Assembly (NCBI RefSeq): GCF_021117405.1
Contig: NZ_CP088251.1
Location: 1,674,001 to 1,738,000 of the forward strand
Direction: 5' to 3'
Source of the DNA: Frateuria edaphi
GTDB taxonomy: Bacteria; Pseudomonadota; Gammaproteobacteria; Xanthomonadales; Rhodanobacteraceae
Length of the DNA stretch: 64,000 bases
The position numbers and the translations under genes are program-made. Below the pieces are notes generated by a model. The model did no database searches and was not told the origin of the DNA. It saw only the letters and a program-made list of their open reading frames with translations. Shown here piece after piece: positions 19,320-35,652 of this stretch (its first letter is position 1; each line of letters begins with the position of its first letter).

Positions 19320-19347
19320 ATTTCGCATAATGTCTATTATGTCAAAT
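19320..19347 (+). other. dif-like XerCD site, left prophage junction (attL)
   Basis: A near-canonical dif sequence: XerC arm ATTTCGCATAA, central TGTCTA, XerD arm TTATGTCAAAT. The E. coli dif arms are GGTGCGCATAA and TTATGTTAAAT around TGTATA. It directly borders the filamentous prophage. An intact host-type XerC arm on this side suggests this was the chromosomal dif, so the eCIS operon would lie next to the replication terminus. Confidence 0.88.
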
Positions 19348-19420
19348 CTCACGCGGTGGGCGCGGAGCCTTCACGCGGCGGCTGTTGCCCTGTTGGCCCG
19401 CCTGCATGGAGGCGCGCAGC

Positions 19421-19762
19421 ATGGGCCGTCGCCGGCAGCGGCTTGACTGGGACTGGAATGATCAGCGGCAGGAATTCACCACGCCATCCGGCCGCGTGGT
19501 CTCGCTCCAAGAGATCGCGCAACTTCTTCACGACCAGGCGGAATGCCGCTTTGATTTCGCCGGACCATGGGCCGGCTGGCGCATGCGCGGCGCGGCGCTC
19601 TTTCCGCCTCACGCAGTGCGCGGTGGCCCATGCCTAAAGCCAGATACGGGAAAGCACCTGTGTCGCTGGATCGCAGAGGCTAGCGCCGGTACTGGCCCGA
19701 ACACGCAACCGGCCGGCCGTCAGGCCCTAAGGCTTGTGTATAGCTCGCGCCTTCGACCCTGA
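19421..19762 (+). CDS. Small phage protein, DUF3653-like
   Basis: A 113-residue basic protein. The recognisable core is DWDWNDQRQEFTTPSGRVVSLQEIAQLLHDQ followed by WAGWRMRGAALFPP; the GWR-x-R-x-L-x-P pattern is reminiscent of DUF3653 proteins of xanthomonad phages, though the match is by eye. The start is ATG 19421, with GGAGG about 8 bases upstream. The last 83 bases overlap the convergent gene ending at 19680, so the true C-terminus could be doubtful. In the circular phage form it would directly follow the repressor gene. Confidence 0.6.
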   Translation: MGRRRQRLDWDWNDQRQEFTTPSGRVVSLQEIAQLLHDQAECRFDFAGPWAGWRMRGAALFPPHAVRGGPCLKPDTGKHLCRWIAEASAGTGPNTQPAGRQALRLVYSSRLRP

Positions 19763-20033: not shown

Positions 20034-20161
20034 GTTCCACGCCCCTGTTGCTTGCCGGCATCGTAGCAGCGCGCGAGGCGCTCAAATTGATGCGGCGTGT
20101 TTGACCTCGCAGCCGCGAACGATGGAGCATCCAGAAATATCAAATGAAAGGGGGCATGAGA

Positions 20162-20800
20162 ATGATCGAAGGTATCGATCCACGCGAGGCGAGTTGGGTA
20201 GCCGAAAAACTGTTCCATTCGGCGATAGCAGACGGCCACCTAACCTCAGATGACCTAAAGGATCCCCATCGCGCGATCAAAAAGCTTCAAACGCTCGTCA
20301 AGGTAGGAGACTTCGAACTGACTTTTGTCATCGATCATAGGGGTTCGCTTTTAGACCTTGCGCTTGAATATATGAAAGCCACCAAGTACGAACTTAGCGT
20401 CCTTTTCTTCGCCACATTTTTCGAGCATTCGATAAACCATGTAATTGACGCATCGCTTAAGCGGAAAAATTTCGGGAATGACGTAGCGAAAGGCCTGATT
20501 CGGGCTTGCGCCATCCGTGACAAATTCGGCTGGGTGCTGGAACTTCTCTCCCTTCCCTCTTTCAATGCGGCGCATAGAAAAACCATCGAGCGTGTGGCCG
20601 AGGAACGTAACCAGTTCGCTCATTACAAATGGACTGGTTTCAAGGAGCCGAAGGCGGCAGATTTGAGCTTGCTAGCTAGCGCTAAGAAGGCGGCTACGTA
20701 CGCAAGAACTTATGAGTCCAGGTTGATTTATAACGGGAACAAGACACGCATCAATAAGCTGTTCCCGGCAAAGTCACCTAAGTCCCGCAAACCCGTCTAA
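20162..20800 (+). CDS. HEPN-like protein, probable phage cargo gene
   Basis: About 212 residues, helical, with ERNQFAHYKW near residue 155; the RNQFAH part fits the R-x4-H motif of HEPN ribonucleases. Base composition is visibly more AT-rich than the surrounding phage genes, a sign of separate acquisition. Orientation is opposite to the structural module. Start 20162 is preferred because AAAGGGGG lies 7 bases upstream; ATGs at 20144 and 20156 are in frame but less well placed. The role may be anti-phage or superinfection exclusion (inference). It could also be a non-catalytic HEPN-like protein. Confidence 0.72.
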   Translation: MIEGIDPREASWVAEKLFHSAIADGHLTSDDLKDPHRAIKKLQTLVKVGDFELTFVIDHRGSLLDLALEYMKATKYELSVLFFATFFEHSINHVIDASLKRKNFGNDVAKGLIRACAIRDKFGWVLELLSLPSFNAAHRKTIERVAEERNQFAHYKWTGFKEPKAADLSLLASAKKAATYARTYESRLIYNGNKTRINKLFPAKSPKSRKPV

Positions 20801-20964: not shown

Positions 20965-22128
20965 TCAACCGTTATCGCCGGCGATGGCATCCGGGTTCCA
21001 TGACCCAGGTTCACCCGGCGCAACGTAGGTCTGTGCACCAACGCCGTTTTGCCAGCGGCCGGACGCCTGGGGCTGAGCGGGTGCAGACCAGCCCACCGGC
21101 TGGCGCGCCTGCGGCGTGCCCGCCGCCGCTTGGCTGGTCTGTCCCCTTCCCGCCTCGGCGCGGTCGGCCGACTGGAACGGGTTGTACAGCCCATCGTGCA
21201 CGATCTGCCGGCACATCTTCACCGACATTTCGTAACGCGTGCCCTGCTCCGTCATGCAATGGCAGTCGCCCGTTTCTATCGCTGCGCAGAACACGCGGGG
21301 CTGCGCCTGAACCTGCAACCCGTCGAACATAGGAGCGGACCAGGGGATGCCTTCAATACGCGGACGTTGCCACTTGGCGTAGTCCTGCGTTCGCAGCGTT
21401 TCAGACTCGGTTGCCGAGCTATGGCCCATGCGGTCCAGAGCATCCACGCCCTGGTCAACATGCGTAGCAGCTTGCACCTTGGCAGGGTCTTTGAGGCCAA
21501 AGACGAAGTACAACGCGGTAGGGATAAGCACCGCCGCGCCGACGACCATGGCCACGAAGAAATACAGCTTGCGCGGAATCTTCCGCTTCATGTTGTGCAA
21601 CTGGGCGGACTTGTAGTCATCGAACACCGCAGCAGGCAACGTGCCGATTTCTTCGGTCGCGCTTTTTTGCTGGCTTGGGCGTTCGGGCTGGTCCATGCAC
21701 CGGCCCCAGGTGTAGCGAATCACAAGGTTCGTGTTCCACTTCCGCACGCAATGCACGTGCTCGTCGACCAGCTTGCGGACGTAGGCGCTCATCAACGAGG
21801 GGTGCTGCGTGGTCAGCAGGAAGTGGCAGCCATCGTGCCGCACCTTGGAGATGGATTTCACCCAGGACTTCGGCAGGCCCTTGTCCAACGGCATCAAGTG
21901 ATCTTCCTGGCACTCGTCCAGGCAGATAATCGAACCGGGCGGAAGCTCCTCGCGCCAGTTCTGTAGCTGCTCCATCGTCAGCGTATGCGCCAAGCCTTCG
22001 CGCAGCCCGTTGATGCCCATTTGAAAAATGGGCCGGTCGGGCGAACTCTCGCGCAACTTCTGGATTTCGTGCACGAGGCACGCCGTCTTGCCCGCACCCG
22101 GCAGGCCCGTGAAAAGCTTAACCGGCAT
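20965..22128 (-). CDS. zot: Zot/pI-type assembly ATPase
   Basis: A 387-residue zonular-occludens-toxin-like protein, the inner-membrane assembly/extrusion ATPase of filamentous phages. It starts with Walker A GLPGAGKT (residues about 7-14), has Walker B-like SIICLDECQEDH and LLTTQHP. One membrane helix follows (LYFFVAMVVGAAVLIPTALYFVF, about 200-222) and then a periplasmic tail rich in Gln, Ala and Pro with cysteine pairs (CAAIETGDCHC). The ATG at 22128 overlaps the DUF2523 gene by 11 bases. No separate secretin (pIV) is in the prophage, so a host secretin is probably used. Confidence 0.95.
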   Translation of the reverse strand: MPVKLFTGLPGAGKTACLVHEIQKLRESSPDRPIFQMGINGLREGLAHTLTMEQLQNWREELPPGSIICLDECQEDHLMPLDKGLPKSWVKSISKVRHDGCHFLLTTQHPSLMSAYVRKLVDEHVHCVRKWNTNLVIRYTWGRCMDQPERPSQQKSATEEIGTLPAAVFDDYKSAQLHNMKRKIPRKLYFFVAMVVGAAVLIPTALYFVFGLKDPAKVQAATHVDQGVDALDRMGHSSATESETLRTQDYAKWQRPRIEGIPWSAPMFDGLQVQAQPRVFCAAIETGDCHCMTEQGTRYEMSVKMCRQIVHDGLYNPFQSADRAEAGRGQTSQAAAGTPQARQPVGWSAPAQPQASGRWQNGVGAQTYVAPGEPGSWNPDAIAGDNG

Positions 22129-22432
22129 TGCCGCCTGCCCCCTTCGCCCGACGCGACACCAACATGGCGTGCGCGCTGTCCGTGATCGCCCTGCCCATCC
22201 AGGCGCTGCAAATGATCGTGATCGCTTGATCGATCCCAAACCAGCCGACGTAATCGACCATCGGCCCCGCGGTGCCGAGCATGGCTTTAATCTGCGCCTC
22301 GCCCGGGACCACGCTCGAGCCGGCGATCGCGCTCGTGGCGAAGCCGATACCAAGGCTGACCAAGCCGCTTATCACCATCTGCCCGACCGTGCTGAGCAGC
22401 ATTTCACCGATCCACGCAACCAGAACTGGCAT
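22118..22432 (-). CDS. DUF2523-type minor coat/assembly protein (pVI-like)
   Basis: A 104-residue membrane protein of the DUF2523 kind always found just before Zot in inoviruses. It has hydrophobic helices (VAWIGEMLLSTVGQMVISGLVSLGIGFA; GWFGIDQAITIICSAWMGRA) and a basic end. It is thought to correspond to the pVI minor coat protein. Start 22432 overlaps the stop of the adsorption-protein gene, giving tight coupling. Confidence 0.9.
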   Translation of the reverse strand: MPVLVAWIGEMLLSTVGQMVISGLVSLGIGFATSAIAGSSVVPGEAQIKAMLGTAGPMVDYVGWFGIDQAITIICSAWMGRAITDSAHAMLVSRRAKGAGGNAG

Positions 22433-23925
22433 CAGCCGATCCCCTTCATGCCGGCGCCCTTGGTGATTTGCCAAGCCGCATAGAGCGCCATTGCGAGGAT
22501 CAGGCCCCGCACCCAATCGCCCACGACGCACGCGTTGGAGAACGGGACAACGAACTGCCCGAGCTTGCCAGCGTCAACCGTCAGATCAACGAGCGGGCAC
22601 GTGGTGCCGTAGCCGAACCCGCTCATGTCGTAATTGCCGGCGTTGGCCGCGTCGCCTGCGCCGCCGTCGCCGGTGGGCGGCGTATCGCTCCATACATCGC
22701 TCTGCGCATACTTCGTCTTGAGCGAGTCGAAGTCGCTCGGCGGACCATCCCCGGTCAGGTCTTTGTGCAGCTGCGCGGAATCCTTCTTGGCCTGACACAT
22801 CGCAGTCCACTCCTGGCGCGCAACGCCGCACATCACGGCATCGCCAGCACAAACGGGAGGACTGCCGCAGTCGCCGCCGCCGCTGTAGCTCCCTGGCGGG
22901 CTCGCCGTGCTGCTACCGGGTGCAGGGTCGCCCCCAGTCGCAGGCGGGCCGCTGTCGCCCGCAGATTGGCCGCTGGTGGACTGCGTGCCGCCTTGGTTCG
23001 TGTAGCTGATGACGGTGACGTTCTGGTTGGTGCCGGTGGACGGGTCCGCCTGCGTGTAACTGTCGTTGTTCGTCACCGCCGTAGGCGGGTCAGGCACCTG
23101 CGCGGCTGGCGGAGTGGGTGCGGAAGGCGAGCCCGCGCAGATCGTGGAATCACCGGAACTAGCACAGCCGCCGCCAGGCTGGCGCGCGGTGTTGCCGGGG
23201 ATGCAGATTTGCACGCCGTCACTGACCGCGCAGAAGTTGTCGTTGTTCGGGTCGTAGCAGCTTCCGCCGCCGCACGCCTTCGGAGGCGGGTTCGTCGGCG
23301 GTGTCGTGGTGGGATCGGGAGGCGTGGGGACCGGCGTGCTTCCGTTCGGCGCTTTCCAGCCGCCGTTACCGGGAGAGCCGTCGCACGTGGAACCGCTGGA
23401 GGTCGATGACCCTGGGGTGTGCCAGCTTCCCCACTGGTTCATAGTCGGAGGGCCGCTAACGCTGACGTTCATACGGCACATAACGGTCGCGCCGCCGCTG
23501 GTGACCGGCGTGCAGAACGAGTAGCCCTGCAACACCTTGCCCGCGAGCGACCCGCTCACGGTAGGCGCGCTATCGCACGGGTTGATCGGCGTGGTGTAGA
23601 TATAGTCCTGGCGCTTGGCCCAGGGGGAATACACCTGCGAAGTCCGAACGCCACCGGAAATGTAGTAGATGATTTCCCAGCCCTGCACCTCCGGCCTGCC
23701 ATCGGTGTAAGTGCCCTCACGGCACTCCGCATCCTTGGCGACGTTCGTTTCTTCGTTGGCGGCCCACGCCTGACACGCGGCCATCGCTTGAGTGTGCGTG
23801 GTGTAGGTGGTGGCCGCGTGCGACGCCACGGGAGCGCCCAGCAGCACCAGGAGCAGCAGCGCCCTCAGTCGCCCCGCGAGGGCGAGAACATGATCCAACC
23901 GGCACCGAGCCACGCGACGATACAT
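22432..23925 (-). CDS. pIII-like adsorption/attachment protein
   Basis: A 497-residue secreted tip protein. It has an N-terminal signal sequence (LRALLLLVLLGAPVASHA, cleavage before ATTY), a cysteine-containing N-terminal domain, long Pro/Gly/Ser/Thr linkers in the middle (PVPTPPDPTTTPPTNPPP and others), and a C-terminal cysteine domain. It ends in a membrane anchor (VRGLILAMALYAAWQI). This is the usual layout of pIII, which binds host pili and releases the virion. Start 23925 is preferred since GGAAGG sits 6 bases upstream; ATG 23931 is also in frame. Sequence identity to other phages is expected to be low here because of host adaptation. Confidence 0.9.
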   Translation of the reverse strand: MYRRVARCRLDHVLALAGRLRALLLLVLLGAPVASHAATTYTTHTQAMAACQAWAANEETNVAKDAECREGTYTDGRPEVQGWEIIYYISGGVRTSQVYSPWAKRQDYIYTTPINPCDSAPTVSGSLAGKVLQGYSFCTPVTSGGATVMCRMNVSVSGPPTMNQWGSWHTPGSSTSSGSTCDGSPGNGGWKAPNGSTPVPTPPDPTTTPPTNPPPKACGGGSCYDPNNDNFCAVSDGVQICIPGNTARQPGGGCASSGDSTICAGSPSAPTPPAAQVPDPPTAVTNNDSYTQADPSTGTNQNVTVISYTNQGGTQSTSGQSAGDSGPPATGGDPAPGSSTASPPGSYSGGGDCGSPPVCAGDAVMCGVARQEWTAMCQAKKDSAQLHKDLTGDGPPSDFDSLKTKYAQSDVWSDTPPTGDGGAGDAANAGNYDMSGFGYGTTCPLVDLTVDAGKLGQFVVPFSNACVVGDWVRGLILAMALYAAWQITKGAGMKGIG

Positions 23926-23996: not shown

Positions 23997-24206
23997 TCAG
24001 TTCGGCTTGAGCCACTGGTACGCCTTCTTGCCGTACAGCACGGCCAGGATGGCGAGCATCAGCGTACCGACCGCGATGCCGGCGTCGGTCATGTTGGTGG
24101 TCAGGCTGGTGACGTCGATGGCAGCGGCCTGGGACGAGGCAGCGGCCAGGAACGCACCGAGGCCGATGCCGTAGGCAACGGGCTTGCTGTTGTTGAACTT
24201 GCGCAT
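23997..24206 (-). CDS. Major coat protein (pVIII-like)
   Basis: A 69-residue preprotein. The leader (about 1-28, VAYGIGLGAFLAAASSQAAA) is cleaved, leaving a mature coat of about 41 residues: an acidic start (AIDVTSLTTNMTDAG), one membrane helix (IAVGTLMLAILAVLYG) and a basic end (KKAYQWLKPN) that would face the DNA. This is the classic inovirus coat design. It is preceded by the small membrane gene and followed by a strong terminator. Confidence 0.95.
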   Translation of the reverse strand: MRKFNNSKPVAYGIGLGAFLAAASSQAAAIDVTSLTTNMTDAGIAVGTLMLAILAVLYGKKAYQWLKPN

Positions 24207-24591: not shown

Positions 24592-24885
24592 TCAGGCTGC
24601 TTTCGCAGCCTGGGTCTGAGGCTTGACGGGTTCGAACTCGCGGCCGATCTGCAAACGGCCGTCGCGGTCCAGGTACATGCCGGTCGCCTTGACTTCGTAG
24701 TCACCGGGCGGCAGGAAGTGCGGATTCTTGGCGGCGTCGAAATACTGTTCGAACTCCTCCACCCGGCCCTCACCCTTGACGATGCCGCAGACCTGGAAGC
24801 CGTGAACCTGCCCCGGCTTCTTGCCCTCGCGGGTCTTGATTTCGTTGTAAGCGCGCAGTCGCGTGTAGTTGACTTGATTGGACAT
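24592..24885 (-). CDS. Phage single-stranded DNA-binding protein (pV-like)
   Basis: A 97-residue protein with a KPGQVHGFQVCGIVKGEG and FLPPGDYEVKATGMYLDRDGRLQIG pattern typical of filamentous-phage ssDNA-binding proteins of the xanthomonad type. They coat the single-stranded genome before extrusion. It has no signal or membrane segment. It lies between the replication initiator (22-base gap) and a terminator, which is the normal order. Confidence 0.85.
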   Translation of the reverse strand: MSNQVNYTRLRAYNEIKTREGKKPGQVHGFQVCGIVKGEGRVEEFEQYFDAAKNPHFLPPGDYEVKATGMYLDRDGRLQIGREFEPVKPQTQAAKAA

Positions 24886-24907: not shown

Positions 24908-25939
24908 CTATATGGCGAGTTGATGGGTTGCGAACGCGACCCCGAGTGATTCCCCCGACAGGGGGTTTTCTTGCACCCAGCGCGGCACAACGGCACGCGC
25001 GATGCGTTGGCGGACGAACGCGCCCAGCGCGTAGTCGTCCATGCTCAGCTTCGCGACCAGATGCAGCAGCCCGCCGTACTGGCGCTTGCAATGCCTGACC
25101 GCGCTCGCGAAGTTGCCCTTCGCGGTTTCGACCGCCGTGCGCATCAGCGACATGACGGCGCTCATCCAGTCCATGCAGGGGAACTCCCCCACCACGTATT
25201 CCCAGGGCGCGACGAGCACAGCGGTGGGAATCTCGCGGTTGCGTGCGTAGAAGCGCGCTTCCCAGCGCACCCAATCCACGCCCTCGTCCCCGTCCCGCAG
25301 CCCCTGTTCCCTGCCCTTCTCGTAGACGACCATCTGCCGCGTCGCGGTCTTCTTGCCGATGTACAGGGTTTGGCCGCTGCCATCGTTCCAGCCGACGCGT
25401 TGCATGGCCGGGCGCTTGAACGCGCCGTCAAAGGCTCCCGCCTCGTACATCTCCCGGGCGGTGTCCAGGTTGCGCATGCCGCTGTAGTCGTCGTGAGCGG
25501 CGTGATACTCCGTGATCCTGGCCCCCACCGTGTCCAGGCAATCGCGCACGTGACCCCACGCGTCCGCGAAGGGTCGCGAGCGCGCAACGAGGGCGCATGC
25601 TGCGCCCGTCAATTCCACGGACACGGTTCCCCGCTGGCGGTCGCCGCCATAAGCCACGTCGCCGCAGGAAACGCCGTCCGGCGTCAGCAGTTGGAAGTGG
25701 TGCGTGTAGCCACGACGCCCGCCCTTGGCTTCGCCTTCCAGCACGAGGCCCGACGCCGGGAAGAACCAGTCGAGGAAGGCCAGGACCTTGCGCACCCGCG
25801 CGGCATCATCGAACGCGTCTTCGAACACGACCGCTTCGCGGGTCGTGAAGCGCAGGAAGTCCGCGACGCACGGGAGTTGTTCGTTCAGGTTGGTAGGTCC
25901 CCTGTTAGCCGACGGGACCTTCGGTTCGCGGCGGGTCAC
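24908..25939 (-). CDS. Phage replication initiation protein (RstA/Rep_trans-like)
   Basis: A 343-residue replication initiation factor of the RstA/pII functional class that starts rolling-circle replication of the phage. Recognisable text: VADFLRFTT start, GDVAYGGDRQRGTVSVELTGAAC, RITEYHAAHDDYSGM, QTLYIGKKTATRQMVVYEKG and VRWEARFYARNREIP. These belong to the replication initiation factor family that includes RstA. Possible catalytic tyrosines lie in the YIGKK and YEKG segments. Its start overlaps the 50-residue gene by 4 bases. Confidence 0.92.
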   Translation of the reverse strand: MTRREPKVPSANRGPTNLNEQLPCVADFLRFTTREAVVFEDAFDDAARVRKVLAFLDWFFPASGLVLEGEAKGGRRGYTHHFQLLTPDGVSCGDVAYGGDRQRGTVSVELTGAACALVARSRPFADAWGHVRDCLDTVGARITEYHAAHDDYSGMRNLDTAREMYEAGAFDGAFKRPAMQRVGWNDGSGQTLYIGKKTATRQMVVYEKGREQGLRDGDEGVDWVRWEARFYARNREIPTAVLVAPWEYVVGEFPCMDWMSAVMSLMRTAVETAKGNFASAVRHCKRQYGGLLHLVAKLSMDDYALGAFVRQRIARAVVPRWVQENPLSGESLGVAFATHQLAI

Positions 25940-26088
25940 GGGAACATCTCAAGCTGTTCGCCCGCAAGCTGCGCATGCAGGGCTTCGTTAGCGAGGCGCA
26001 GCCACACGGCAGCGCGGTCGGGCTGGCCACGGTCGCAGGCCGCGAGACACTCGGCCAAGGCGATGCTCTCGGCTTCGACGGCGCTCAC
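25936..26088 (-). CDS. 50-residue phage protein of unknown function (GTG start)
   Basis: A short acidic, helical protein (SAVEAESIALAECLAACDRGQ...RLANEALHAQLAGEQLEMF). It has no ATG; the GTG at 26088 overlaps the stop of the preceding membrane gene (GTGA), and its stop overlaps the replication gene start. The double coupling argues that it is real. The function is unknown, possibly modulating replication. Confidence 0.7.
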   Translation of the reverse strand: MSAVEAESIALAECLAACDRGQPDRAAVWLRLANEALHAQLAGEQLEMFP

Positions 26089-26204
26089 AGGCGCACGCCT
26101 TCCAGCGTCTGGCGCTGGCGGCGGTTGAGGGTCACGAGGACAGTCGCGACGCGGTACGCGATCAGCGGCAAGGCGAGGTAGATCAGCCCGGCAAGAATTT
26201 CCAT
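26085..26204 (-). CDS. 39-residue single-helix membrane protein
   Basis: First gene of the minus-strand phage unit. It starts MEILAGLIYLALPLIAYRVATVLV, a membrane helix, then a basic tail (NRRQRQ). AAGGGG lies 6 bases upstream of ATG 26204; a further ATG at 26222 would lengthen it by six residues. Its role is unknown. Confidence 0.68.
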   Translation of the reverse strand: MEILAGLIYLALPLIAYRVATVLVTLNRRQRQTLEGVRL

Positions 26205-26216
26205 TTGAGGCCCCTT

Positions 26217-26273
26217 TGTCATCAGGCCGATGACATGGGCGCTTGTATACTCCCCGATGACAACTGCTGTCAA
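26217..26273. promoter_or_regulatory. Early promoter and palindromic operators of the prophage
   Basis: On the minus strand a promoter reads TTGACA (26273-26268), an 18-base spacer, then TATACA (26249-26244). Two inverted repeats overlap it: TGTCATC-N5-GATGACA at 26217-26235 just past the start point, and TGACA-N5-TGTCA at 26258-26272 over the -35. A partial third copy, GATGACATGTC, overlaps the repressor start codon. This fits negative control of replication genes and self-control by the divergent repressor. Confidence 0.78.
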
Positions 26274-26285
26274 CAAGGTGATGAC

Positions 26286-26681
26286 ATGTCGCACACGACC
26301 GATTTGCTAGACGCCTACAAGCAAGCGCTTGGGCTGCGCACGGACATGGCTGCGGCTGAAGCCCTAGGAATAACGCGCGGCGCAGTGAGTGCTTGGCGCA
26401 GCGATACGAACCGCCGACACGCCGAGCCTGAGAGCGTCGAGACGATGGCGAAGGCATGCGGACTGGACCCGGAGGAGTGGGTTCTCCGAGTCCAGGCGGA
26501 CCGGGAGGCACAGGTGAACCCGCGCCGCGCACAGGTGTGGGTTCGATGTGCTGACCGGCTGGCAAAGACTGCGGCAGCCGTCGTCCTCATGCTCGCGTTT
26601 GGACGTCTAGGCGTCTACGCGTCACCTGCCCCGGGCGTGCATTCTTTCGCTCATAACCCGGGCACACTGTCTATTATGTAA
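26286..26681 (+). CDS. Phage HTH repressor (DUF3693-like)
   Basis: 131 residues as integrated. The N-terminal half is a helix-turn-helix domain (LLDAYKQALGLRTDMAAAEALGITRGAVSAWRSD) with CGLDPEEWVLRVQADREA after it, typical of DUF3693-like phage regulators. A hydrophobic segment (TAAAVVLMLAFGRLGVYA) suggests membrane tethering. It is divergent from the replication unit, with operators between. The last codons and the TAA stop are made by the right dif-like site itself, so the C-terminus differs between the integrated and circular phage. The start ATG 26286 has AAGGTG upstream. Confidence 0.88.
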   Translation: MSHTTDLLDAYKQALGLRTDMAAAEALGITRGAVSAWRSDTNRRHAEPESVETMAKACGLDPEEWVLRVQADREAQVNPRRAQVWVRCADRLAKTAAAVVLMLAFGRLGVYASPAPGVHSFAHNPGTLSIM

Positions 26682-26684
26682 AAA
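26657..26684 (+). other. dif-like XerCD site, right prophage junction (attR)
   Basis: XerC arm CCCGGGCACAC (poor match to dif), central TGTCTA identical to the left site, XerD arm TTATGTAAAAA (8 of 11 positions as in the left site). A degenerate XerC arm is typical of the phage-derived half in dif-integrating filamentous phages. Confidence 0.82.
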
Positions 26685-27706: not shown

Positions 27707-28339
27707 TTAGTCAAATGTATTGCCGCGAGCCGCCTTCATTGCATCGAACTGCTCCCGCGAAATGTTTTTGGTCAGAACCCAGCCTGACAGGTAATAAATC
27801 AGGGCCCTGGTGGCTTCTCGAGCACAGTCCATGATCTCGATCCAGCTCGATTCTGGATAGTGCTCATCGAACTCGCTAAGCTCCACAGCAATGCGTCCAC
27901 CGGAATCCACTTCTTTGATGGCACCGGTAACGTGACTACCTGAGAAGTGCACGAAGCTTGACAGAGTGTCGTAGACCTTCGGGAGCCATGGGAGCATCGG
28001 TGTAAGCAGCTCCACCAGGCGAGCGTCTAGGAGAAGCCTCCCTTCCCTATCCTTAATCTTCCGAATGTGCTCGCCACTGTGTACTCGAGTTGCGAAAACA
28101 TGGGGGTCATCGACGAACCAGGCAGCAGCGTATCGAAGTGCAGTATCGATGTGTACCCGAAGCATCGACCTAACTCCAAGCATATTGGAGGCTTCGGTTA
28201 ATGTAATAAGTGCTGCGCTGGTGCTCAGGTTCCGCTTGACCGCGCCATACGTATAGAGGTCCATCGGGAAGATGGCGCCACCTCCTGCCTCCGCCATCTG
28301 TTTAGCGAGAGCGAGGATTCTTTTCCTATCTTCGCGCAA
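27707..28339 (-). CDS. Hypothetical protein beside the defence-like pair
   Basis: About 210 residues, mostly helical, soluble. Visible segments are LITLTEASNMLGVRSMLRVHIDTALRYAAAWFVDDPH, TLSSFVHFSGSHV and the C-terminal REATRALIYYLSGWVLTKN. The Fv-HFS-x-SH stretch and helix content recall HEPN-like or DUF-type helical proteins without a clear R-x4-6-H motif. No ATG starts the frame; TTG 28339 is the most upstream reasonable start before a TAG 54 bases further up. It may be 5'-truncated. It is transcribed in the same direction as the HNH/ATPase pair. Confidence 0.6.
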   Translation of the reverse strand: MREDRKRILALAKQMAEAGGGAIFPMDLYTYGAVKRNLSTSAALITLTEASNMLGVRSMLRVHIDTALRYAAAWFVDDPHVFATRVHSGEHIRKIKDREGRLLLDARLVELLTPMLPWLPKVYDTLSSFVHFSGSHVTGAIKEVDSGGRIAVELSEFDEHYPESSWIEIMDCAREATRALIYYLSGWVLTKNISREQFDAMKAARGNTFD

Positions 28340-28481
28340 TCCCTTAATGCGGCTCTCGATTTCAGTTTGCGTTACGGTGTTATACCTTTTCTAACCAGCG
28401 CGAACGGCATCACGCCGTTCCACCAAGATAATCCCTCATAAGGTATGAGCCTCGCCTACGTCAAACTGATCGCCCGCAGCT

Positions 28482-28838
28482 CTAAGATACATGAACGAGG
28501 TCTCGATCGTCTAAGTCAAGGTTGGAACTAAGGCCCTTCTCCTCGATGCGAGCGCGCCACCATTCGACGTTGCCCGGATGCTTGTTCTTTACAATTTGAT
28601 AGACGAACACGACAGAAACTGCGGTCTGAATCATTGACTGCGGCCAACTTCTAATTTGGTTGGCAAGCAGGGTGCATCGCTCTTGACCCATTGCGAGCAG
28701 AACCTGTTCGATTATAGGTGCTTTAACGCGCAGCGCTTTCCCAACGGTCATGCCGACATATCGAACATCCTTGGTTCCGGCTCGGACAGCCGCCCAGGTT
28801 GCGACGACGATGATGGTCGCGCCAACTCCCCACCACAT
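28482..28838 (-). CDS. Hypothetical protein with N-terminal membrane helix
   Basis: 118 residues. WWGVGATIIVVATWAAVRAG is a clear membrane helix; the rest is a soluble alpha-helical region containing a hydrophobic MIQTAVSVVFVYQIV and ending WWRARIEEKGLSSNLDLDDRDLV. It lies between the HNH gene and the hypothetical gene at 27707, same strand, with gaps of 128 and 142 bases. No family was recognised. Confidence 0.6.
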   Translation of the reverse strand: MWWGVGATIIVVATWAAVRAGTKDVRYVGMTVGKALRVKAPIIEQVLLAMGQERCTLLANQIRSWPQSMIQTAVSVVFVYQIVKNKHPGNVEWWRARIEEKGLSSNLDLDDRDLVHVS

Positions 28839-28966
28839 ACAATGGCTCCTAGTCCTGTTGGTTGGTGTCGGCCAAAACGATGGCGATTTGACGCTCAGCA
28901 GCGGAGTCTAGTTGACATGTAAAGATTGCGATTGGCGTCATGCTAGTAGCCCAGACGAAGTAGCCG

Positions 28967-29908
28967 TCACTTGCGGCCTTGATTCCCGTCCTGAGGTAGG
29001 TGTTCCAACAGCAACCGATTGGCTGGTTCGGTCACGTTTTCAATGGCAGGTAGCTGTCCAATTGTCGTAATTATCAAAGCGGTAGATGAAACATCAACTT
29101 CGATTGTGCTTTTCCGGCGAGCCGTTGCCGCTTGCTTTTGCTTGCCTCGCTCAGCGGCAAGCTGGGTGGCTTCCATCAAAGCTAGCCCGGGAATCCTTTT
29201 CGCAGCTTTTTTGCTAAGAGAGTCCAACTTCTTGGCCAACGGTACAAGCAACATATCCCGCCGCCTGTTTTCCATACTTTCCGTCAGATGCGCCATGCGT
29301 TCCAGAATCTCGTGATCCGCTAAAGTCGGAGGAACGGCCCCGGCTACAATCTTAAAGAAGTCTGACTTCACTGCGGCCACGACATCTTCGTATTTTAGGC
29401 CGGCATGCTTGATGGCTGGTTCGTTCAATTTGCAGACCCGCATCAATTCGGTGCCCTTGCCGTTCTTTGCCGTATAGATCTGGTAGTTGACGTGAGACAA
29501 ACAACTGGCCCAGCTGTCCAGGCGCGGATGGGGTATGGCGTAATTTACCGGGTCGGTGGGTAGGTCAGGTAACATATGGCCCAGCGTGGGCTTGGGCAGG
29601 AGCACGTCTTGGTTTCCCTTGGCGCCGTTGCATCGCTTGCAAGCAATGGCAAGGTTGCCTTCCTTTGCGAAGAACTGGGGGTAATGGTCTTCGCTGAGTA
29701 CGTGTTCTAGATCCCAGTAGTTACTGTGAGTCGAGTCTCCGTATTTTTGGCAATAACAGCACCTCAACTGCTGAGCATACATGCATGCCTTCTTGAAGCG
29801 CGCCTTTGCTTCCGACTGATCAAACCAAGCGTTGAGGTCCTCTTGACTGCAGGCGTTCCCTACTTCGTCAATCTCAGTTTGTTCGCAAGCCAGGAATGTG
29901 GCGTTCAT
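28967..29908 (-). CDS. HNH nuclease, PtuB-like partner of the ATPase
   Basis: A 313-residue protein with an HNH nuclease core: CCYC (50-53), DLEHV with His69, then NLAIACKRCNGAKGN (85-99) holding the second cysteine pair and the Asn. The C-terminal part is helical and basic. It starts inside the stop codon of the upstream ATPase (TAATG), so the two are translationally coupled. This gene order, an SMC-like ATPase followed by an HNH nuclease, is that of Septu (PtuA/PtuB) anti-phage systems. Retron-linked pairs look similar, but no reverse transcriptase is here. Confidence 0.85.
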   Translation of the reverse strand: MNATFLACEQTEIDEVGNACSQEDLNAWFDQSEAKARFKKACMYAQQLRCCYCQKYGDSTHSNYWDLEHVLSEDHYPQFFAKEGNLAIACKRCNGAKGNQDVLLPKPTLGHMLPDLPTDPVNYAIPHPRLDSWASCLSHVNYQIYTAKNGKGTELMRVCKLNEPAIKHAGLKYEDVVAAVKSDFFKIVAGAVPPTLADHEILERMAHLTESMENRRRDMLLVPLAKKLDSLSKKAAKRIPGLALMEATQLAAERGKQKQAATARRKSTIEVDVSSTALIITTIGQLPAIENVTEPANRLLLEHLPQDGNQGRK

Positions 29909-31287
29909 TAGTGAAGTATGGCTAAGCAGACGTTCCGGACGAGGTCTGCAAGCGGCTCGCTGCTTGGGATGCTGTCCTGGAAGCTGGCTAAGAATTCGGC
30001 GATCTGCTGAGCGCGATCTTCATCTTGAAGCCCCTGCTCGATGAGCGTGAGTGCTTCCAGAACTAGCTGTTTGAGATAGTTGTTATCAGGCGTAAGGACA
30101 TTGAACGCACTAACCAAAGTCGCATCAGGCGAGGTGTTCGCCACCACATCGTCCTTGACCCGAACGGGTTCCTGGTCAAGCCGCAGAATGGCGCACCCCC
30201 TCCCCGCGAATCCGCTAACAATCAACGGAGAATGGGTCGCCAGCACGTAATGGCAGCCGCTGCGGCTCTTCAGCACGGCGTCTAGCATTTCCACGTAGCT
30301 CAGCTGCCACTCGGGGTGAAGGCTGTTTTCCGGTTCATCGATGAGGACAACACACCCGTCCTCAAGATTGGCCGCTAGCCCCAAGAAGCCCGAGAGTAGG
30401 TTCAACTCCCCTGACGATAGGTCGAGAAGTTCGACTTCATCGCCGTTTTGACGCTCAAGAGTTGCGGATATCATTCGCAGCACATTGGCGCGAACCAACT
30501 GGCGAAGCGTGTCGTACTCTATCTTGTTGGATGCAAAATTCGCCGCGTGCCCCTTCGCAAAATCGAAACGATATGGGATGGTGGAGGCCGTTCTCCCTGG
30601 GCCCGCTTGCAGTAGTGGTTGCAGGTCCGCCATCTGCGCCTCAACCCGTTCGCGATTGATGTGCTCGGATGCAAGAACGTTGTGCAAACGATTCAATTGG
30701 TAGTTAATCGTCAGGACAGGCCGATATCCGATCGCGGCCAGCACACCAGCGACGCGTTGATCTGGTATAGGGCTAGAGGCCGCGAGGGCCAATTGGTCAA
30801 TAGACTGGCGTAGCAAGGCTCGCGGAGAGTTCCGCACACTGCCCTTGAATCCGAGATACACGTACGCATTCGCGGATTCGTTTGGGGAGCCTTTCCGGTT
30901 GCCAGGCACATTGATAGGAAACTTATCAAACGGCGTGAACGATAGGGCGATGATCTTGCTCGGCCCCTTACCCCTGCCCCGGGCCAAGCTGCGCTCATTG
31001 AAGAGTCTGCCGTTGGGCTCGCTTCGATCGAGCACATCAAGATGGCCGTCACTTTCGATCTTCAGTCCGACTACTCTTCCGCTACCTCGACGACTACGTG
31101 GTCGCCCGGAAAAGTACTCGCGCATAGCGTTCGTTAAGTCACGAAGCACGGTGGATTTCCCACTGCCGTTCCGCCCGATGAGGATGGTCACGCACGATGG
31201 CTGTGAGTGAGCTGGCGCGAACGATAGCCGTTGCCTGCCAAGGATAGGCAGGTCTGCAACGACTTCCTTGATCAAAACTTTAGACAC
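29908..31287 (-). CDS. ABC/SMC-type ATPase, PtuA-like
   Basis: A 459-residue ATPase with Walker A IGRNGSGKST (37-46), ABC signature LSSGELNLLSG (about 288), Walker B GCVVLIDEPENSLHPEWQ (about 310) and H-loop LATHSPLIVSG (about 348). Between them lies a helical insert of some 150 residues. The layout is that of AAA_21/OLD-like nucleases without a TOPRIM domain; the nuclease is supplied by the coupled HNH protein. Such pairs act in phage defence, with the ATPase holding the nuclease until infection. Surrounding decayed integrase genes point to arrival by horizontal transfer. Confidence 0.87.
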   Translation of the reverse strand: MSKVLIKEVVADLPILGRQRLSFAPAHSQPSCVTILIGRNGSGKSTVLRDLTNAMREYFSGRPRSRRGSGRVVGLKIESDGHLDVLDRSEPNGRLFNERSLARGRGKGPSKIIALSFTPFDKFPINVPGNRKGSPNESANAYVYLGFKGSVRNSPRALLRQSIDQLALAASSPIPDQRVAGVLAAIGYRPVLTINYQLNRLHNVLASEHINRERVEAQMADLQPLLQAGPGRTASTIPYRFDFAKGHAANFASNKIEYDTLRQLVRANVLRMISATLERQNGDEVELLDLSSGELNLLSGFLGLAANLEDGCVVLIDEPENSLHPEWQLSYVEMLDAVLKSRSGCHYVLATHSPLIVSGFAGRGCAILRLDQEPVRVKDDVVANTSPDATLVSAFNVLTPDNNYLKQLVLEALTLIEQGLQDEDRAQQIAEFLASFQDSIPSSEPLADLVRNVCLAILH

Positions 31288-31481
31288 TCGATCATTCCCT
31301 GTATCCCCCTCACGGACATTCGGGATTCAGCGGAGCATTGTCAATAGAGATCGTGCGCAAGCTCGGACCGTCGCTTCGCGGAGCCGGAACGTTTCGGGAC
31401 GAGGCTGTCTTTGGGTTAGTACCGCCTGCTCTTTTTTTGCCGGCGTACACGCTGGCTTTGTGGCTATCGATATGCCTAGAT

Positions 31482-31786
31482 TCAAGCTTCTACCACTAGC
31501 AACTGGTCCCAGTTGGTGGTGTACGCAGGAGAAAGCCGTCCTCGGCGCATAGTCCAGTCCTTGGTGGCTTTCACCCCGGCGTGGCCCATGCCAAATTGCT
31601 CGCGCCCGAAACGGGCCTGGATTTGATCGACCGTATGAGTGATTGGCGCCGCGTGCTCATCTGGGCTACGTCGAACAGTGCCCCCTGCGCGTGGGTTCGC
31701 TCCTCTAAGTCCTCGAGCATGACGCCTGCCTGGTGTAGCGATAACCATCCTTGAAAGTTCGGGCCAGTATCCGCTCCGCTGCGCAC
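31482..31786 (-). pseudogene. umuC (DNA polymerase V) 3' remnant
   Basis: Two minus-strand frames together encode the C-terminal end of a UmuC-like protein. In one frame lies HQAGVMLEDLEERTHAQGALFDV; after a frameshift near 31670 the other frame gives ITHTVDQIQARFGREQF, then WTMRRGRLSPAYTTNWDQL and VVEA followed by stop. The PxYTTxWxxL ending is typical of UmuC. The polymerase catalytic part is absent, so it is a fragment left by rearrangement. Confidence 0.75.
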
Positions 31787-31953
31787 GTCAGGACGGCTGG
31801 ATCATGGATGCGGATCCATCACCACGGTGTTGAGGTCGATCGGGCTCTCTTCATAGTCCTCGGCGGGGGGGGACGCAAATCCACATGGCACTTCGGTAAA
31901 GTGCCTCAGCAGCCAGGCTGAGTACCACCGGCACATGGGGTTCGGGGACGCGA

Positions 31954-32692
31954 ATGCGCTGGGTGGGAGCGCCGGACACAGAGTCGCGCGAATTGAAGAT
32001 GGTTGCCCATTCTATTAGACATCTACAAAATGCGGAGCTCTTTAGAGCCGGCGTTTCGGACGCCATTATTATAAAACGCTTCGGTCGTCGGAGTATTGCG
32101 CAGAGCCATTGTTACGATCATCGTAGCCTTGCTGAGGACCTAGCGCATATTGACCTACCGGAGGCCGCGAACGTTCTTGGTGATCGGACAAAGGAGCTAG
32201 CGAAGCTAATCCAAGCCCGAAGGGTCAGCGGTCCGATTATTGAGGAGTTTCTTTCTATTCAGGCGCCGGGAGGGTGACCAAGCGGCATTCGCATATCTCG
32301 AAGCAGAAGCTGATGGATTGCACGTGACCCCCTAAGGTTTGTGCGTCAACAGCTTCGTCGTGGACCCGTGCCCGAAGCATCTGGAGTGCTTCAACGGCTG
32401 CAGACACCTTACCCGTACCGAAGTAAGCTCGGAGAGGGAAAATCTACAGAAGCTTCTTGACGCTACAAAGCGTATAGAGACGGCTATTAAGGCCGTTCCT
32501 GAAACCGAGAGAAACATTGGCTGGGAAAACCAGTTGCAATCGGCGGCTTTGAGAATAGCCAATATTCAGATCGCTTTGAATACTGAGCCAAACAGTAAGC
32601 CATTTCCGGATGGCCGGGATCTCTTCACTTCGGTTGACAGCCAGTCAGGAACCTCCGTTCTGGACGCTCGACCTCCTAGAGAGCGAGTTTGA
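31954..32692 (+). pseudogene. Tyrosine recombinase, C-terminal remnant with frameshift and stop
   Basis: The first frame (to 32277) has HSIRHLQNAELFRAGVSDAII and SIAQSHCYDHRSLAEDL, the H-x-x-R-H to Tyr region of a tyrosine recombinase of the large Tn554 TnpB-like type found on genomic islands. A shift of frame near 32270 then continues GDQAAFAYLEAEADGLHVTP, a TAA at 32335-32337, and GLCVNSFVVDPCPKHLECFNGC, the cysteine-rich C-terminal finger of this family. It ends ERENLQKLLDAT...KPFPDGRDLF. The N-terminal two thirds are missing and two lesions are present, so it is inactive. Confidence 0.82.
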
Positions 32693-33170
32693 TGAAAGCC
32701 TCTGGCGACATTGACAGGCTTCGAGAGGTGTTGGAGCGCATGCTCTCGTCCAATGACACCATCTCAGCAAGGGCCGTTGCGCGAGATCCGCGTGTGCCGT
32801 TCAAGAATGCATCCGACATCACGCGCCATGTGGCGCGACGTGCGCTACTGGAGGACTCAAGGAGCGGCAGAACGAAGCCAGGCGCTTAGCGGCAGATGTC
32901 GATAAAAATTCGGTGAAAAGCTTGCGGCTGAGGGTTGCGCAATTGGAGGAAAAGTGTGAAGCGCTTCAGCGATCTCGAGACCTGTTGGCTGCGTCGCACA
33001 AAGCTATGCTTCTTGCCATAGGTGAAATAGGAGGGATGCGCGCTTGGGAGAAGTTCTTCCCGCAATGGGACCAGGTGCGGCGCTCATTGATCGAAGTAGG
33101 AGCTTTCCCAGCTGATAATCCTGGTACAGGTTGGTGCCCTCGGGGTGGCAAGGGTCCCCCTGCAATGTAG
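32692..33170 (+). pseudogene. Small integrase-partner gene (TnpC/DUF6262-like), frameshifted
   Basis: It follows the recombinase remnant with a TGATG overlap, the usual arrangement of the third gene in these integrase clusters. The first frame (IDRLREVLERMLSSNDTISARAVAR) stops at 32889. Shifting frame near 32850 restores a continuous coiled coil (LKERQNEARRLAADVD, LRLRVAQLEEKCEALQRSRDLL) and the end MRAWEKFFPQWDQVRRSL. It is read as a single gene broken by one frameshift. Confidence 0.68.
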
Positions 33171-33693
33171 CTTGCCCCTCCTGCTCGAGTGCTGATCGCA
33201 CCTCAGCTGTTGCTGCTCCTCAGCTGACAATTCCGGCGAATGCAACACCAATGCTGCCCCTCGGCGCAACAGACTGCAGGATGCGTAGTGCAGGCGCGCA
33301 CCCTCAAGTTATTGATGTTTCGGCCGATTACTGTCTTTGTGTGTCTGCAACATAAGTAAGAACGTCTCACTCTGTCAAATTCGATGGCAGGCCTTGATTG
33401 CAAGGAGTCAGGCTTTTGTGTCGCAACCCAGTTAACCGTGACAGTCGACCGGTTAACCTTGTCATCCCACGTAAATGTGTCGTGTTCAGACAGAACTGGT
33501 ACTCCTGTCGCGCCCATTTCGGCTCTCGTCTCGAGGATCGTGTCGCGGGAGAGAACAATGTTCTTTCCGGGAGGATCCTCGCGGGCAACCTAACGACGCA
33601 CCGCAGCGCCGGCAGGCCCCCCCTAATCCTCAAATTGAGTGGTTTTTGCTACACCCCAGGCAGCGCCGATACGCGCCCCAGCGCCCCTGACGT
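33171..33693. other. Intergenic, no supported gene
   Basis: About 520 bases behind the decayed integrase module. Only short overlapping frames are seen on both strands, and no family, repeat or structured RNA was recognised. Confidence 0.6.
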
Positions 33694-33840
33694 TCACGGC
33701 TTAACAGGCAACCCACAGACATAGCACGAGTCCGTGTGGCCCCGTCGCCACTGCAGCAGCCGTGCGAATTGAACGAGGTAATACAACGCGCTGGCACCTA
33801 CCCCCAACGCCACGAGTGCGTCCGGAAGTTCGGGCCACAT
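33694..33840 (-). CDS. 48-residue membrane protein with CxxC end
   Basis: Small protein starting MWPELPDALVALGVGASALYYLVQFARLLQW, one membrane helix, then RRGHTDSCYVCGLPVKP with a CxxC pair. A GGGGGG ribosome-site-like run lies 7 bases before the ATG. It is isolated, and its function is unknown. The CxxC could bind metal or be redox active. Confidence 0.5.
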   Translation of the reverse strand: MWPELPDALVALGVGASALYYLVQFARLLQWRRGHTDSCYVCGLPVKP

Positions 33841-34154
33841 TGGCAAGCCCCCCCCATAGAGGCTGGTAGATCCGACAATGTCTTGGCCACTATTGCGACG
33901 AGTAGCGAGGCCAGCAACGGCACCACACTTGGTATCAATAGCCGAGCGCACATTCGAGAGACATACGACATCGGAGCTTCCCTCCCTGCAATCTCGCCGG
34001 CATTGTCCTAGATGGCGATCTCATAATCTCCCTTCCCTGCGCCGAAAACTATGAGCGGGCGCGCCATCTATCACAGGCACTGATTAAATGCCAAAAGCTA
34101 ACGGGCTGCGTGAATGGTCTCCGCCATCAAGGCTTTTGGAAATATCTGGGGCAT
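33841..34154. other. Intergenic, no supported gene
   Basis: About 310 bases, AT-richer than average, between the 48-residue gene and the immunity-like gene. Nothing recognisable was found. Confidence 0.6.
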
Positions 34155-34634
34155 TTACTTATCGCCCTGTAGCAACCTTGGCGGAGGCACCTCAGAATAG
34201 CCCCAAGGGTGATCAGCCTTTGATACCCACTTGATATCGGTTATTGTTCCGGCCGTCTCAAAACCATGGTAATCGCTCGTATCACTTCCTCGCGCATTGA
34301 ATCGACCAACCAGTTCGACATAAGAATGGTTTAACCCATATAAGCTTGAAACTTGCTTTACGCTCGCGGGAAGTACTACCGCAATGCCGTCCGAAACGCT
34401 GCTTGCCTCGAACATGTCCCGGCTCGTGAATAATATGGGAATCTCGCCGTAAGCGAAAAAGCCGGTCACCGCAACGACCTTATTATCGTAGTCGGCTCCT
34501 TTTGTAATCAGCGAGTAGAGGCTCACCGGGCATACACCCTCGTCGACTCCGGCAACCCTTCTTTTGCACTCACTCGCTTGAACCAAGGGCGCTAGAACTA
34601 AAAGGAATGTCGAAAAGAGTATTTTCTTGATCAC
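34155..34634 (-). CDS. Secreted protein, probable immunity partner of the RHS C-terminal domain
   Basis: A 159-residue protein with a signal peptide (IKKILFSTFLLVLAPLVQAS, cleavage near ASEC) and two early cysteines (ECKRRVAGVDEGVC). The body is a beta-rich OB-like fold (VVAVTGFFAYGEIPILFTSRDMFE, SYVELVGRF). The start overlaps the stop of the RHS-core gene by ATGA, the standard coupling of toxin and immunity genes. Export of the immunity protein fits a toxin that is itself exported by a signal peptide. The base composition is low in GC. The immunity role is inferred from position. Confidence 0.68.
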   Translation of the reverse strand: MIKKILFSTFLLVLAPLVQASECKRRVAGVDEGVCPVSLYSLITKGADYDNKVVAVTGFFAYGEIPILFTSRDMFEASSVSDGIAVVLPASVKQVSSLYGLNHSYVELVGRFNARGSDTSDYHGFETAGTITDIKWVSKADHPWGYSEVPPPRLLQGDK

Positions 34635-35638
34635 TTTGATCTCCGCACTTGATAGATCGGCTCACTCAGGAAATGATAACCCCCTGAATAGTCAACGTTT
34701 GTTCTGAAGGGCTGAACACGCCAACCATAGACCGCTCCGTTCGGTAGCGCTACGTAGCCATTGATGTTGTTATTAAAGTATCTGACGAGGTCACCGGTCC
34801 CATTCGATCCAGAGACGTGGGCGTTTCGGTCGCCGGGAAACGCGTAAGCCGTAGTCCCAGAAAAGCCATGGTTGTCCGGGTGTGTATGGATTTCCGCAAC
34901 TGTCGTTGGAAAATATACTCCAGCGACCTCCATGTCGATCGTGTTTCGATCGCCCGAGCTATAGGTGGCCGTGCAAGTAAAGCCTGAGTCTTTTAGATAC
35001 ATTATGCTCGAGCCAATCTCCACGTTTAGTTTTATAGTGACAGGGACCACTGCATCCGCCCAGGCCATTGCTAATTGGTCGGACGTTGTATAGGCATGAC
35101 CCAAGACCCCCGCGTTCGTTAGCGCACTATCTGCCAATCTAGTCGCGCGCGCAGCCATTTGCGCCCTGGAAGTATCTCCGCTGCCGGATGTCTCACATCG
35201 ATAGACCTCACAAGTTATTTGTGACGCGCTCATGTGCTCCGGGAACGCACCGCTAGGATCCACAGCAACTATTGGATTGTTCAATACATATGCGTATCTG
35301 TTGAACTCAAATCCAGCTTTCGCGCCCATTCCGACCAAGTCTACGCTTAAAAAGCGACCCAAGCTTGAATCATAGTACCGAGCCTCCATATAGACGAGTC
35401 CGGAATCAGGGTCGTTCACGTGCCCCGTGAACCCAGGTCCATTATCTACGCCTCCAAGTATCTGTTTACCGTATGGGCGGTACTCGTAAGTTGATGTGAC
35501 GGCTCCACTGCTATCCGCTTCGGCAAGGGGAGTGCCTTGAGGATCAGTGTAGATGTACGTGACAGTGCCCGCGTGAGCGACACCAAATGCGTCGGGCACG
35601 AGTAACAAACAAATGAATTTCGAAAAGTTCCGCGTCAT
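34631..35638 (-). CDS. Secreted RHS-core protein with HTHP C-terminal domain
   Basis: 335 residues. A signal peptide (FICLLLVPDAFGVAHA) is followed by an RHS-associated core (TYEYRPYGKQILGG, DSGLVYMEARYYDSSLGRFLSVD, NRYAYVLNNPIVAVDPSG, about 25-130). A variable C-terminal domain follows with AEIHTHPDNHGFSG near residue 250. The HTHP motif and following GDRNAH/GTGDLV recall JAB/DUF4329-type metallo domains attached to RHS cores. The upstream 1802-residue RHS gene ends 14 bases before, so the core with its toxin-like end is a separate polypeptide. Alternatively it was created by a split of one RHS gene. Confidence 0.8.
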   Translation of the reverse strand: MTRNFSKFICLLLVPDAFGVAHAGTVTYIYTDPQGTPLAEADSSGAVTSTYEYRPYGKQILGGVDNGPGFTGHVNDPDSGLVYMEARYYDSSLGRFLSVDLVGMGAKAGFEFNRYAYVLNNPIVAVDPSGAFPEHMSASQITCEVYRCETSGSGDTSRAQMAARATRLADSALTNAGVLGHAYTTSDQLAMAWADAVVPVTIKLNVEIGSSIMYLKDSGFTCTATYSSGDRNTIDMEVAGVYFPTTVAEIHTHPDNHGFSGTTAYAFPGDRNAHVSGSNGTGDLVRYFNNNINGYVALPNGAVYGWRVQPFRTNVDYSGGYHFLSEPIYQVRRSK

Positions 35639-35652
35639 ATCGCATCCTTGCC

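Follow-up and report, generated by a model that had tools for sequence, protein, structure and literature searches.

The window, as the whole stretch of 64,000 bp analysed here is termed (G000:C1:1674001-1738000, within one 3.77-Mb contig), contains a filamentous provirus of 7,337 bp flanked by two dif-like sites. The sites share a 12-bp core block, TGTCTATTATGT, which starts at 19331 on the left and at 26668 on the right. The left site (19321..19347, plus strand) reads TTTCGCATAA-TGTCTA-TTATGTCAAAT, with the TGTCTA core at 19331-19336; its XerC-side half is probably of host origin and its XerD-side half, TTATGTCAAAT, probably of phage origin. The right site (26660..26684, plus strand) reads GGGCACAC-TGTCTA-TTATGTAAAAA, with the core at 26668-26673; here the XerC-side half is probably the phage's, and the XerD-side half, TTATGTAAAAA, which gives a TAA triplet, is probably the host's. 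A DNA search found no second copy of the provirus in the window's genome, and no close DNA relative was found among phage records.

Judged from matches to Rep_trans and Zot together with gene position, the provirus is an inovirus. The rolling-circle replication initiator (24908..25939, minus strand) matches PF02486 Rep_trans (1.2e-17) and phrog_453 (1.5e-54), and the Zot-like assembly ATPase, or pI (20965..22128, minus strand), matches PF05707 (1.9e-12) and phrog_197 (3.3e-60). The rest of the inovirus gene set present lies on the same strand and is assigned by position and a weak match. A probable single-strand DNA-binding protein (24592..24885) follows Rep and gives a weak match to phrog_1199 (E 0.04), and a probable major coat protein of 69 aa (23997..24206) shows by eye a signal peptide and a membrane helix. 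A probable adsorption protein of pIII-like type (22432..23904) is suggested by its position; it matches phrog_4454 (1.8e-16), a family of unknown function. The dif-like sites with a common core at both ends place the element among the Xer/dif-integrating filamentous phages, and no integrase gene was detected by Pfam and PHROG in the eight larger provirus open reading frames that the scan covered.

An extra gene at 20144-20800 (plus strand) encodes a 218-aa protein with no PHROG or PADLOC match and a weak Pfam match (HTH_44, E 0.1); it is a possible cargo gene. The sequence RNQFAH in this protein resembles the HEPN-type R-x4-H motif. Three proteins were without a PADLOC match, a scan for promoters and terminators gave no result, and GC skew displays no clear switch across the window. 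To the right of the provirus, positions 28001-40000 have 54-59% GC vs 62-71% in the rest of the window, and from this GC content the segment is probably another mobile region.

The gene of main interest encodes a phage repressor. In the integrated provirus it spans 26286..26681 (plus strand) and encodes 131 aa, with a helix-turn-helix (HTH) N-terminus, a hydrophobic segment at about residues 96-112 and a C-terminal GTLSIM, after which the frame ends at a TAA within the right dif-like site. The protein matches phrog_638, a transcriptional regulator family, at 2.3e-23, PF12472 (DUF3693) at 21.9 bits (cut-off 21) and PF01381 at E 1.2e-4 (22.4 bits, slightly below the cut-off of 23). Two 21-bp inverted repeats, located with a search pattern built from the two copies themselves, are probable operators. 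The first, TGTCATCAGGCCGATGACATG (26217..26237), lies between the repressor and the leftward genes, and the second, TGTCAACAAGGTGATGACATG (26268..26288), includes the start codon of the repressor as well as AAGGTG, a probable Shine-Dalgarno sequence. A small open reading frame at 26085-26294 (minus strand), 69 aa from a GTG, is divergent from the repressor across both operators and may be the first gene that the repressor controls.

The initial annotation placed the repressor stop in the right dif-like site and proposed that, when the sites are joined in the circular phage, the frame runs on into the gene at 19421. Coordinates, peptide and lengths were all found to be correct. In the circle, the tail-coding segment (19331..19446, plus strand) extends the repressor by 34 residues to a TGA at 19444-19446, and the recomputed product has 165 aa vs 131 aa and ends in SIMSNLTRWARSLHAAAVALLARLHGGAQHGPSPAAA. 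A different crossover point, which the initial annotation named as a ground for refutation, is without effect inside the core: each of its 12 positions gives the same joined frame and 165 aa. The attachment site thus lies inside the repressor frame. The dif core falls towards the 3′ end of this phage gene for an HTH regulator, and the predicted viral product is longer than the predicted prophage product. The downstream gene (19421..19762, plus strand) encodes a DUF3653-like protein of 113 aa with the sequence FAGPWAGW (PF12375 E 0.017, below its cut-off), and a GPWAG-like stretch is also found near the start of the neighbour proteins in several relatives. In the circle the repressor tail overlaps this gene by 26 nt; in the provirus the gene is parted from the promoter of the repressor. 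In DNA of 62-66% GC, 34 codons without a stop would not in themselves be noteworthy, and it is the comparison with relatives that gives them significance.

The origin of the stop codon was approached through the dif arms of five other genomes of the same genus (G093-G097). The arms are TTATGTAAAA in G093, G094 and G095 and TTATGTCAAA in G097, where a phage remnant follows; no dif match was found in G096. Since the arms of these sites fit the left half of the left site and the right half of the right site, these halves are assigned to the host and the TAA is taken as host-derived. The phage half of dif carries TCA where the host half carries TAA. The arms and the family pattern described below are the evidence that the TAA probably comes with the host half of the site. 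A search for an empty site by synteny compared 37 flanking open reading frames with the dif regions of four genomes of the genus and matched none. In locus L152 (G093), near 3480, and in L076 (G097), near 9541-9563, a single dif site precedes what is left of a related phage's left end; these remains are scars of past proviruses in the genus.

Relatives of the repressor at E <= 0.001 are present in 32 of 233 genomes of the same family, the window's own included. Matches to phrog_638 occur in 189 of 398 genomes of the order; the weak ones are unspecific because the control was also positive in 8 of 14 well-known genomes. One weak place (G116) and the weaker phrog_638 matches were left out. With the window protein as query, no relative was confirmed in the genome-contig and viral-contig collections. 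The set of relatives, made up of the DNA around the better matches and eight viral contigs, comprises 75 loci with 72 repressor-like places. A paired dif site is located in the 3′ part of the gene in 40 of these places, and the frame continues through dif in all 40, a count that, like those of pairs and tails, retains the doubtful-looking joins L057, L067, L123, L127 and L133. The 32 places without a pair consist of 21 that have the core and no left partner by the pairing rule (tandem copies and duplicates included; L147 is the same as L066, and L144 the same as L055) and 11 that have no dif core. L118 and L134, with a core and no pair, were judged by eye.

Two side observations concern individual loci. 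The window's genome carries a second repressor relative, L059 (G000:C1:639100-658400), near 648.6 kb. In this locus and in L046, L049, L052, L053, L058 and L061 the gene ends without a nearby dif core and without an overlapping neighbour, and this group probably integrates differently. In G046, two different phages (L045 and L065), one of each of the orientation classes defined below, are found about 13 kb apart at dif, and the XerD-side half appears to pass from one phage to the next.

Circular records offer a direct view of the joined frame. Ten such records of Xanthomonas and Stenotrophomonas phages (Cf1c, XacF1, phiXv2, phiLf, Cf2, SMA9, SMA7, SMA6, phiSHP2 and PSH1) all have the dif core inside the repressor coding sequence with the frame continuing through it. 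The search for the same reading across attP in related phages, which the initial annotation had proposed, thus returned an open frame in every paired place and every circular record. The repressor coding sequence overlaps the next one in 8 of the 10 records, with a gap of 2 nt in SMA6 and phiSHP2, and the records of phiLf, phiXv2 and Cf2 annotate a recombination or attachment site within the coding sequence. Counted from the core, the tails comprise 18-71 residues over the 40 paired places and 10 records.

Tandem copies give a similar picture. One locus is present twice on a G109 contig, assembled once as a single copy (L077) and once as three copies (L043). Joining the ends of L077 predicts a protein of 162 aa, and this protein is encoded at the inner junction of L043; in the outer copy the frame runs into host DNA and ends after 144 aa. 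The tandem L110 (G491) encodes 170 aa at the junction vs 146. In one of the G109 copies the head is truncated and the tail frameshifted, and the one-copy and three-copy versions are perhaps two states in one culture. Together with the circular records and the selection on the tail described below, the junctions support well, as facts of sequence, the two alternative C-termini and the operon link to the next gene in the circle that the initial annotation had put forward.

The relatives fall into two orientation classes. In class A, which includes the window phage, the repressor frame enters dif on the XerC side and leaves it on the XerD side; the direction is the opposite in class B (Cf1c, XacF1, phiLf, SMA9, PSH1 and others). 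Class A repressors in frame 1 meet ATG-TAA in the host half, and 9 of 11 paired proviruses stop exactly there; the corresponding phage halves carry TCA (seven) or TTA (two). The unpaired L048, L050, L066 (= L147), L134 and L146 stop at the same host TAA. The host TAA is absent from L057 and L133, also in frame 1, which counts against a universal rule. Class B and the other frames enter host DNA and mostly pick up a chance tail, with a host-coded extension of up to 288 residues from the core.

Several lines of evidence indicate that the tail is under selection as a protein. In class A, the phage half contains no stop in 14 cases in frame 1 (ATG-NNN), whereas TAA is present in 5 of 9 cases in the other frames, in which it would be harmless (p 0.0037 by Fisher's test, optimistic, as is every p value given here, owing to the relatedness of the sequences); without the doubtful joins the counts are 0 of 12 vs 3 of 7 (p 0.036). 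Related tail proteins are conserved behind different dif frames, and the spacing compensates, with three frames in each of two tail families. Family T1 (ending in LTLLCALAAYHCWSLHRKRTGQ) uses frames 0, 1 and 2 with core-to-stop DNA of 93, 92 and 94 nt, and phiXv2, at 89 nt, is one residue shorter. Family T3 (WQWLGLWLGSCLRP followed by a terminal KDEIAA) is also found in all three frames, its frame-1 member L128 having lost the stop, and family T2 (LARLLP followed by a terminal HGA) in two. Of interest are SMA9 (L033) and PSH1 (L142), which share an identical 26-residue tail end, SAWQWLGLWLGSCLRPQSPAKDEIAA, and a similar neighbour start and have very different heads. Since one tail is common to such different heads, repressor heads and tails have been exchanged and kept in frame, and the exchange was probably at dif.

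The pattern of substitutions points the same way. Nine tail pairs, picked by eye and in some stretches overlapping the neighbour gene, display 129 substitutions, with 35, 29 and 65 at codon positions 1, 2 and 3 (binomial p 4.7e-5); for this test L128, which has lost its stop, was cut after DELAA. Of the substitutions, a fraction of 0.46 is synonymous vs 0.21 expected by random placement, and none of 2000 simulations reached the observed value. In T1 and T3, with 4-nt overlaps, the same bias is seen, 27 of 43 and 39 of 73 differences being at third positions (all pairs, which are not independent). The tail stop lies -45 to +5 nt from the start of an open reading frame of at least 80 aa in 35 of 40 joins, vs 10 of 40 and 8 of 40 in the shifted frames. 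Taken together, these comparisons indicate that reading through attP has been conserved in this phage group and is under selection there.

The tail ends at first pointed to an ssrA-like tag of the BPs type. Of the distinct tails, 25 of 46 end in alanine vs none of 40 distinct provirus ends, and alanine makes up 13.8% of residues inside the tails. For overlaps of more than 6 nt, 14 of 27 tails end in alanine vs 9.4 expected by synonymous re-coding from the neighbour's coding alone (for L112 and L130 the start at -37 was used in this control, and a start at -4 also exists). A degron as the main reading was therefore demoted, since re-coding of the neighbour predicts 9.4 of the 14 alanine ends; moreover, the ends RTGQ, ADAK and ILER are not degron-like. 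The window tail ends in PAAA. The most degron-like tails are those of T3 (KDEIAA, DKEIAA, KDELAA), and T1 (RTGQ) is not of this type.

In each of the 50 heads a hydrophobic stretch begins at residues 80-102, with a mean hydropathy of 1.2-2.5 over 17 residues (values given without a control set). Should this stretch before attP anchor the protein in the membrane, the tail would be on its far side, a proposal offered as a lead only. Two further features were considered and set aside. A second membrane helix in the tail is not general: hydrophobic clustering relative to shuffles is strong in T1, L060, L067 and L069, with a mean z of 0.55 over 50. An A-x-A motif after the hydrophobic stretch of the head occurs in 32 of 50 and is absent from the window repressor.

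We consider it somewhat probable that, through the position of attP in the repressor gene, integration governs both the repressor and the gene next to it, in a scheme like that of mycobacteriophage BPs. In the circle, the phage half of dif has TCA and no stop, and the frame would continue into a tail of about 30-40 residues that the phage encodes. The tail's stop overlaps the beginning of the DUF3653-like gene, such that the tailed repressor and the neighbour would share one transcript, with coupled translation probable. With integration by host XerCD, the phage half would be replaced by its host counterpart, which carries TAA; the repressor would lose its tail, and the neighbour its link to the repressor promoter. 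The short form would then be the stable repressor that keeps lysogeny, and the tailed form might be weakened, unstable or otherwise modified, as in the integration-dependent immunity of mycobacteriophages.

The sequences show the frames, the family-wide architecture and the selection on the tail, and they lend support to a host origin of the stop; expression, coupling and a difference in activity are what we infer from them, and so is the switch sensing integration state that the initial annotation had suggested. Against the scheme, a clean stop is acquired by some proviruses only, and 11 of the 72 repressor-like places are without a dif core. The proposed polarity, with the short form active, is based on XacF1, whose prophages have only the split ORF12 and are stable. 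XacF1 lacking the 5′ part of ORF12 has a titre about equal or higher, and its prophages are unstable; its authors note that changed attP flanks could also explain the delayed integration of the deletion mutant (PMC5666396).

A rather less probable account, which we do not expect to suffice, centres on the neighbour. The tail would serve mainly to couple translation to the DUF3653-like gene, integration would turn this gene off by parting it from its promoter, and both repressor forms would be equally active. Consistent with this, 35 of 40 joins have the tail stop where the following gene starts, and in all 11 circular records the repressor overlaps or abuts its downstream neighbour. The overlaps vary (-4 to -28, +2) and use both frames, as expected if it is coupling that is kept, and the last tail residues largely follow the neighbour's coding. 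This account, however, leaves unexplained the conservation of the tail protein upstream of the overlap, for example in T1 and T3, where the overlap is mostly 4 nt.

We regard as improbable the opposite polarity, in which the tailed, full-length protein would act as repressor or host regulator while the phage is free, to be disarmed or retargeted on integration. A C-terminal segment could contribute oligomerization or ligand binding, and passages of Yamada 2013 (PMC3816273) propose a regulation of host genes by the full-length form and maintenance of the prophage by the short one. The stability of XacF1 prophages that have only the split ORF12, and its loss on 5′ deletion, argue against this polarity. 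That dif was captured by chance in the gene end and the two forms are neutral by-products is disfavoured and seems very improbable: XerCD sites tolerate variable phage arms and stops are few in GC-rich DNA, but the frame-compensated tail conservation, the third-position bias, the avoidance of TAA in frame 1 and the stops at the next start speak against it.

For the BPs-like scheme, a wider form can be put forward tentatively, and we would hold it to be possible without thinking it probable. Integration-dependent immunity might be general for Xer-using filamentous phages, with a swappable, phage-coded tail by which the circle's repressor would be flagged as inactive or short-lived, a host dif stop that arms some of the repressors, and a tail that may act across the membrane. 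Filamentous phages that use XerCD and have no integrase would thereby tie the lysogeny decision to integration. If this is true, a C-terminus and an operon partner set by the att site would report the integration state directly, by way of a stop codon taken from the site at which the host resolves chromosome dimers.

Comparable arrangements are known. In the Ralstonia phage phiRSS0, integration creates a new stop in ORF13, whose product has 156 aa before and 130 aa afterwards; that the two ORF13 forms play different roles is Hypothesis 1 of Yamada 2013, according to passages of that paper (PMC3816273). As described in parts of two papers (PMC3816273, PMC4471427), phiRSS0 resembles the window phage in that attP/dif lies inside a repressor-like open reading frame and a new stop shortens the protein. 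It differs in its host class and in the loss of 26 residues vs 34 here, a comparison made by description and not by sequence. The passages of Yamada 2013 contain no comparative test (PMC3816273).

ORF12 of XacF1 is split on integration (PMC5666396, and passages of PMC4076744). In XacF1 ORF12 and Cf1c cp8, a related regulator has the same place, attP is within the open reading frame and the frame overlaps the next gene (passages of PMC4076744; PMC5666396). The window repressor shows 27.7% identity to Cf1c by tblastn (E 3e-8 in a small local set), which with DUF3693 above its cut-off supports homology of the regulators. Unlike the window phage, XacF1 and Cf1c read dif from the XerD to the XerC side, and the integrated frame enters host DNA without a stop at a dif TAA. 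VGJphi (NC_004736) has an annotated functional attP inside regulator ORF154, which overlaps the next regulator, ORF136; it is distantly homologous (30.8% identity by tblastn across 79% of the query, E 1e-4), and its tail is not recognisably related by eye.

In the literature searched, which did not extend to older Cf-phage papers (e.g. Cheng 1999, on a primary immunity determinant) or to most subscription papers, no measurement of repression or stability of the two forms was found for this phage family. Among the papers of that literature in which 'integration-dependent immunity' and 'filamentous' occur together, none is by its title about filamentous phages; 'integration-dependent' was not found in the inovirus papers searched, and DUF3693 is unmentioned.

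A parallel with reported experiments is BPs, in which gp33 has a viral form of 136 and a prophage form of 103 residues and the viral form is reported to be inactivated by an ssrA-like tag (PMC4557955). In BPs, attP is in the repressor gene, the viral form is longer by 33 residues (34 here) and the prophage form is short, as in the window phage; the BPs cassette, however, has its own integrase and a reported tag, whereas no integrase was found in the eight scanned open reading frames here and a degron would be putative. The window phage may work like BPs, but in view of the integrase it is not classed as a member of that system. The idea of an attP within the repressor is already published for phiRSS0 and XacF1. 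What is added here is evidence, drawn from sequence comparison, that the group as a whole conserves the read-through under selection, and such comparative tests turn a published suggestion on single phages into a testable group-wide claim.
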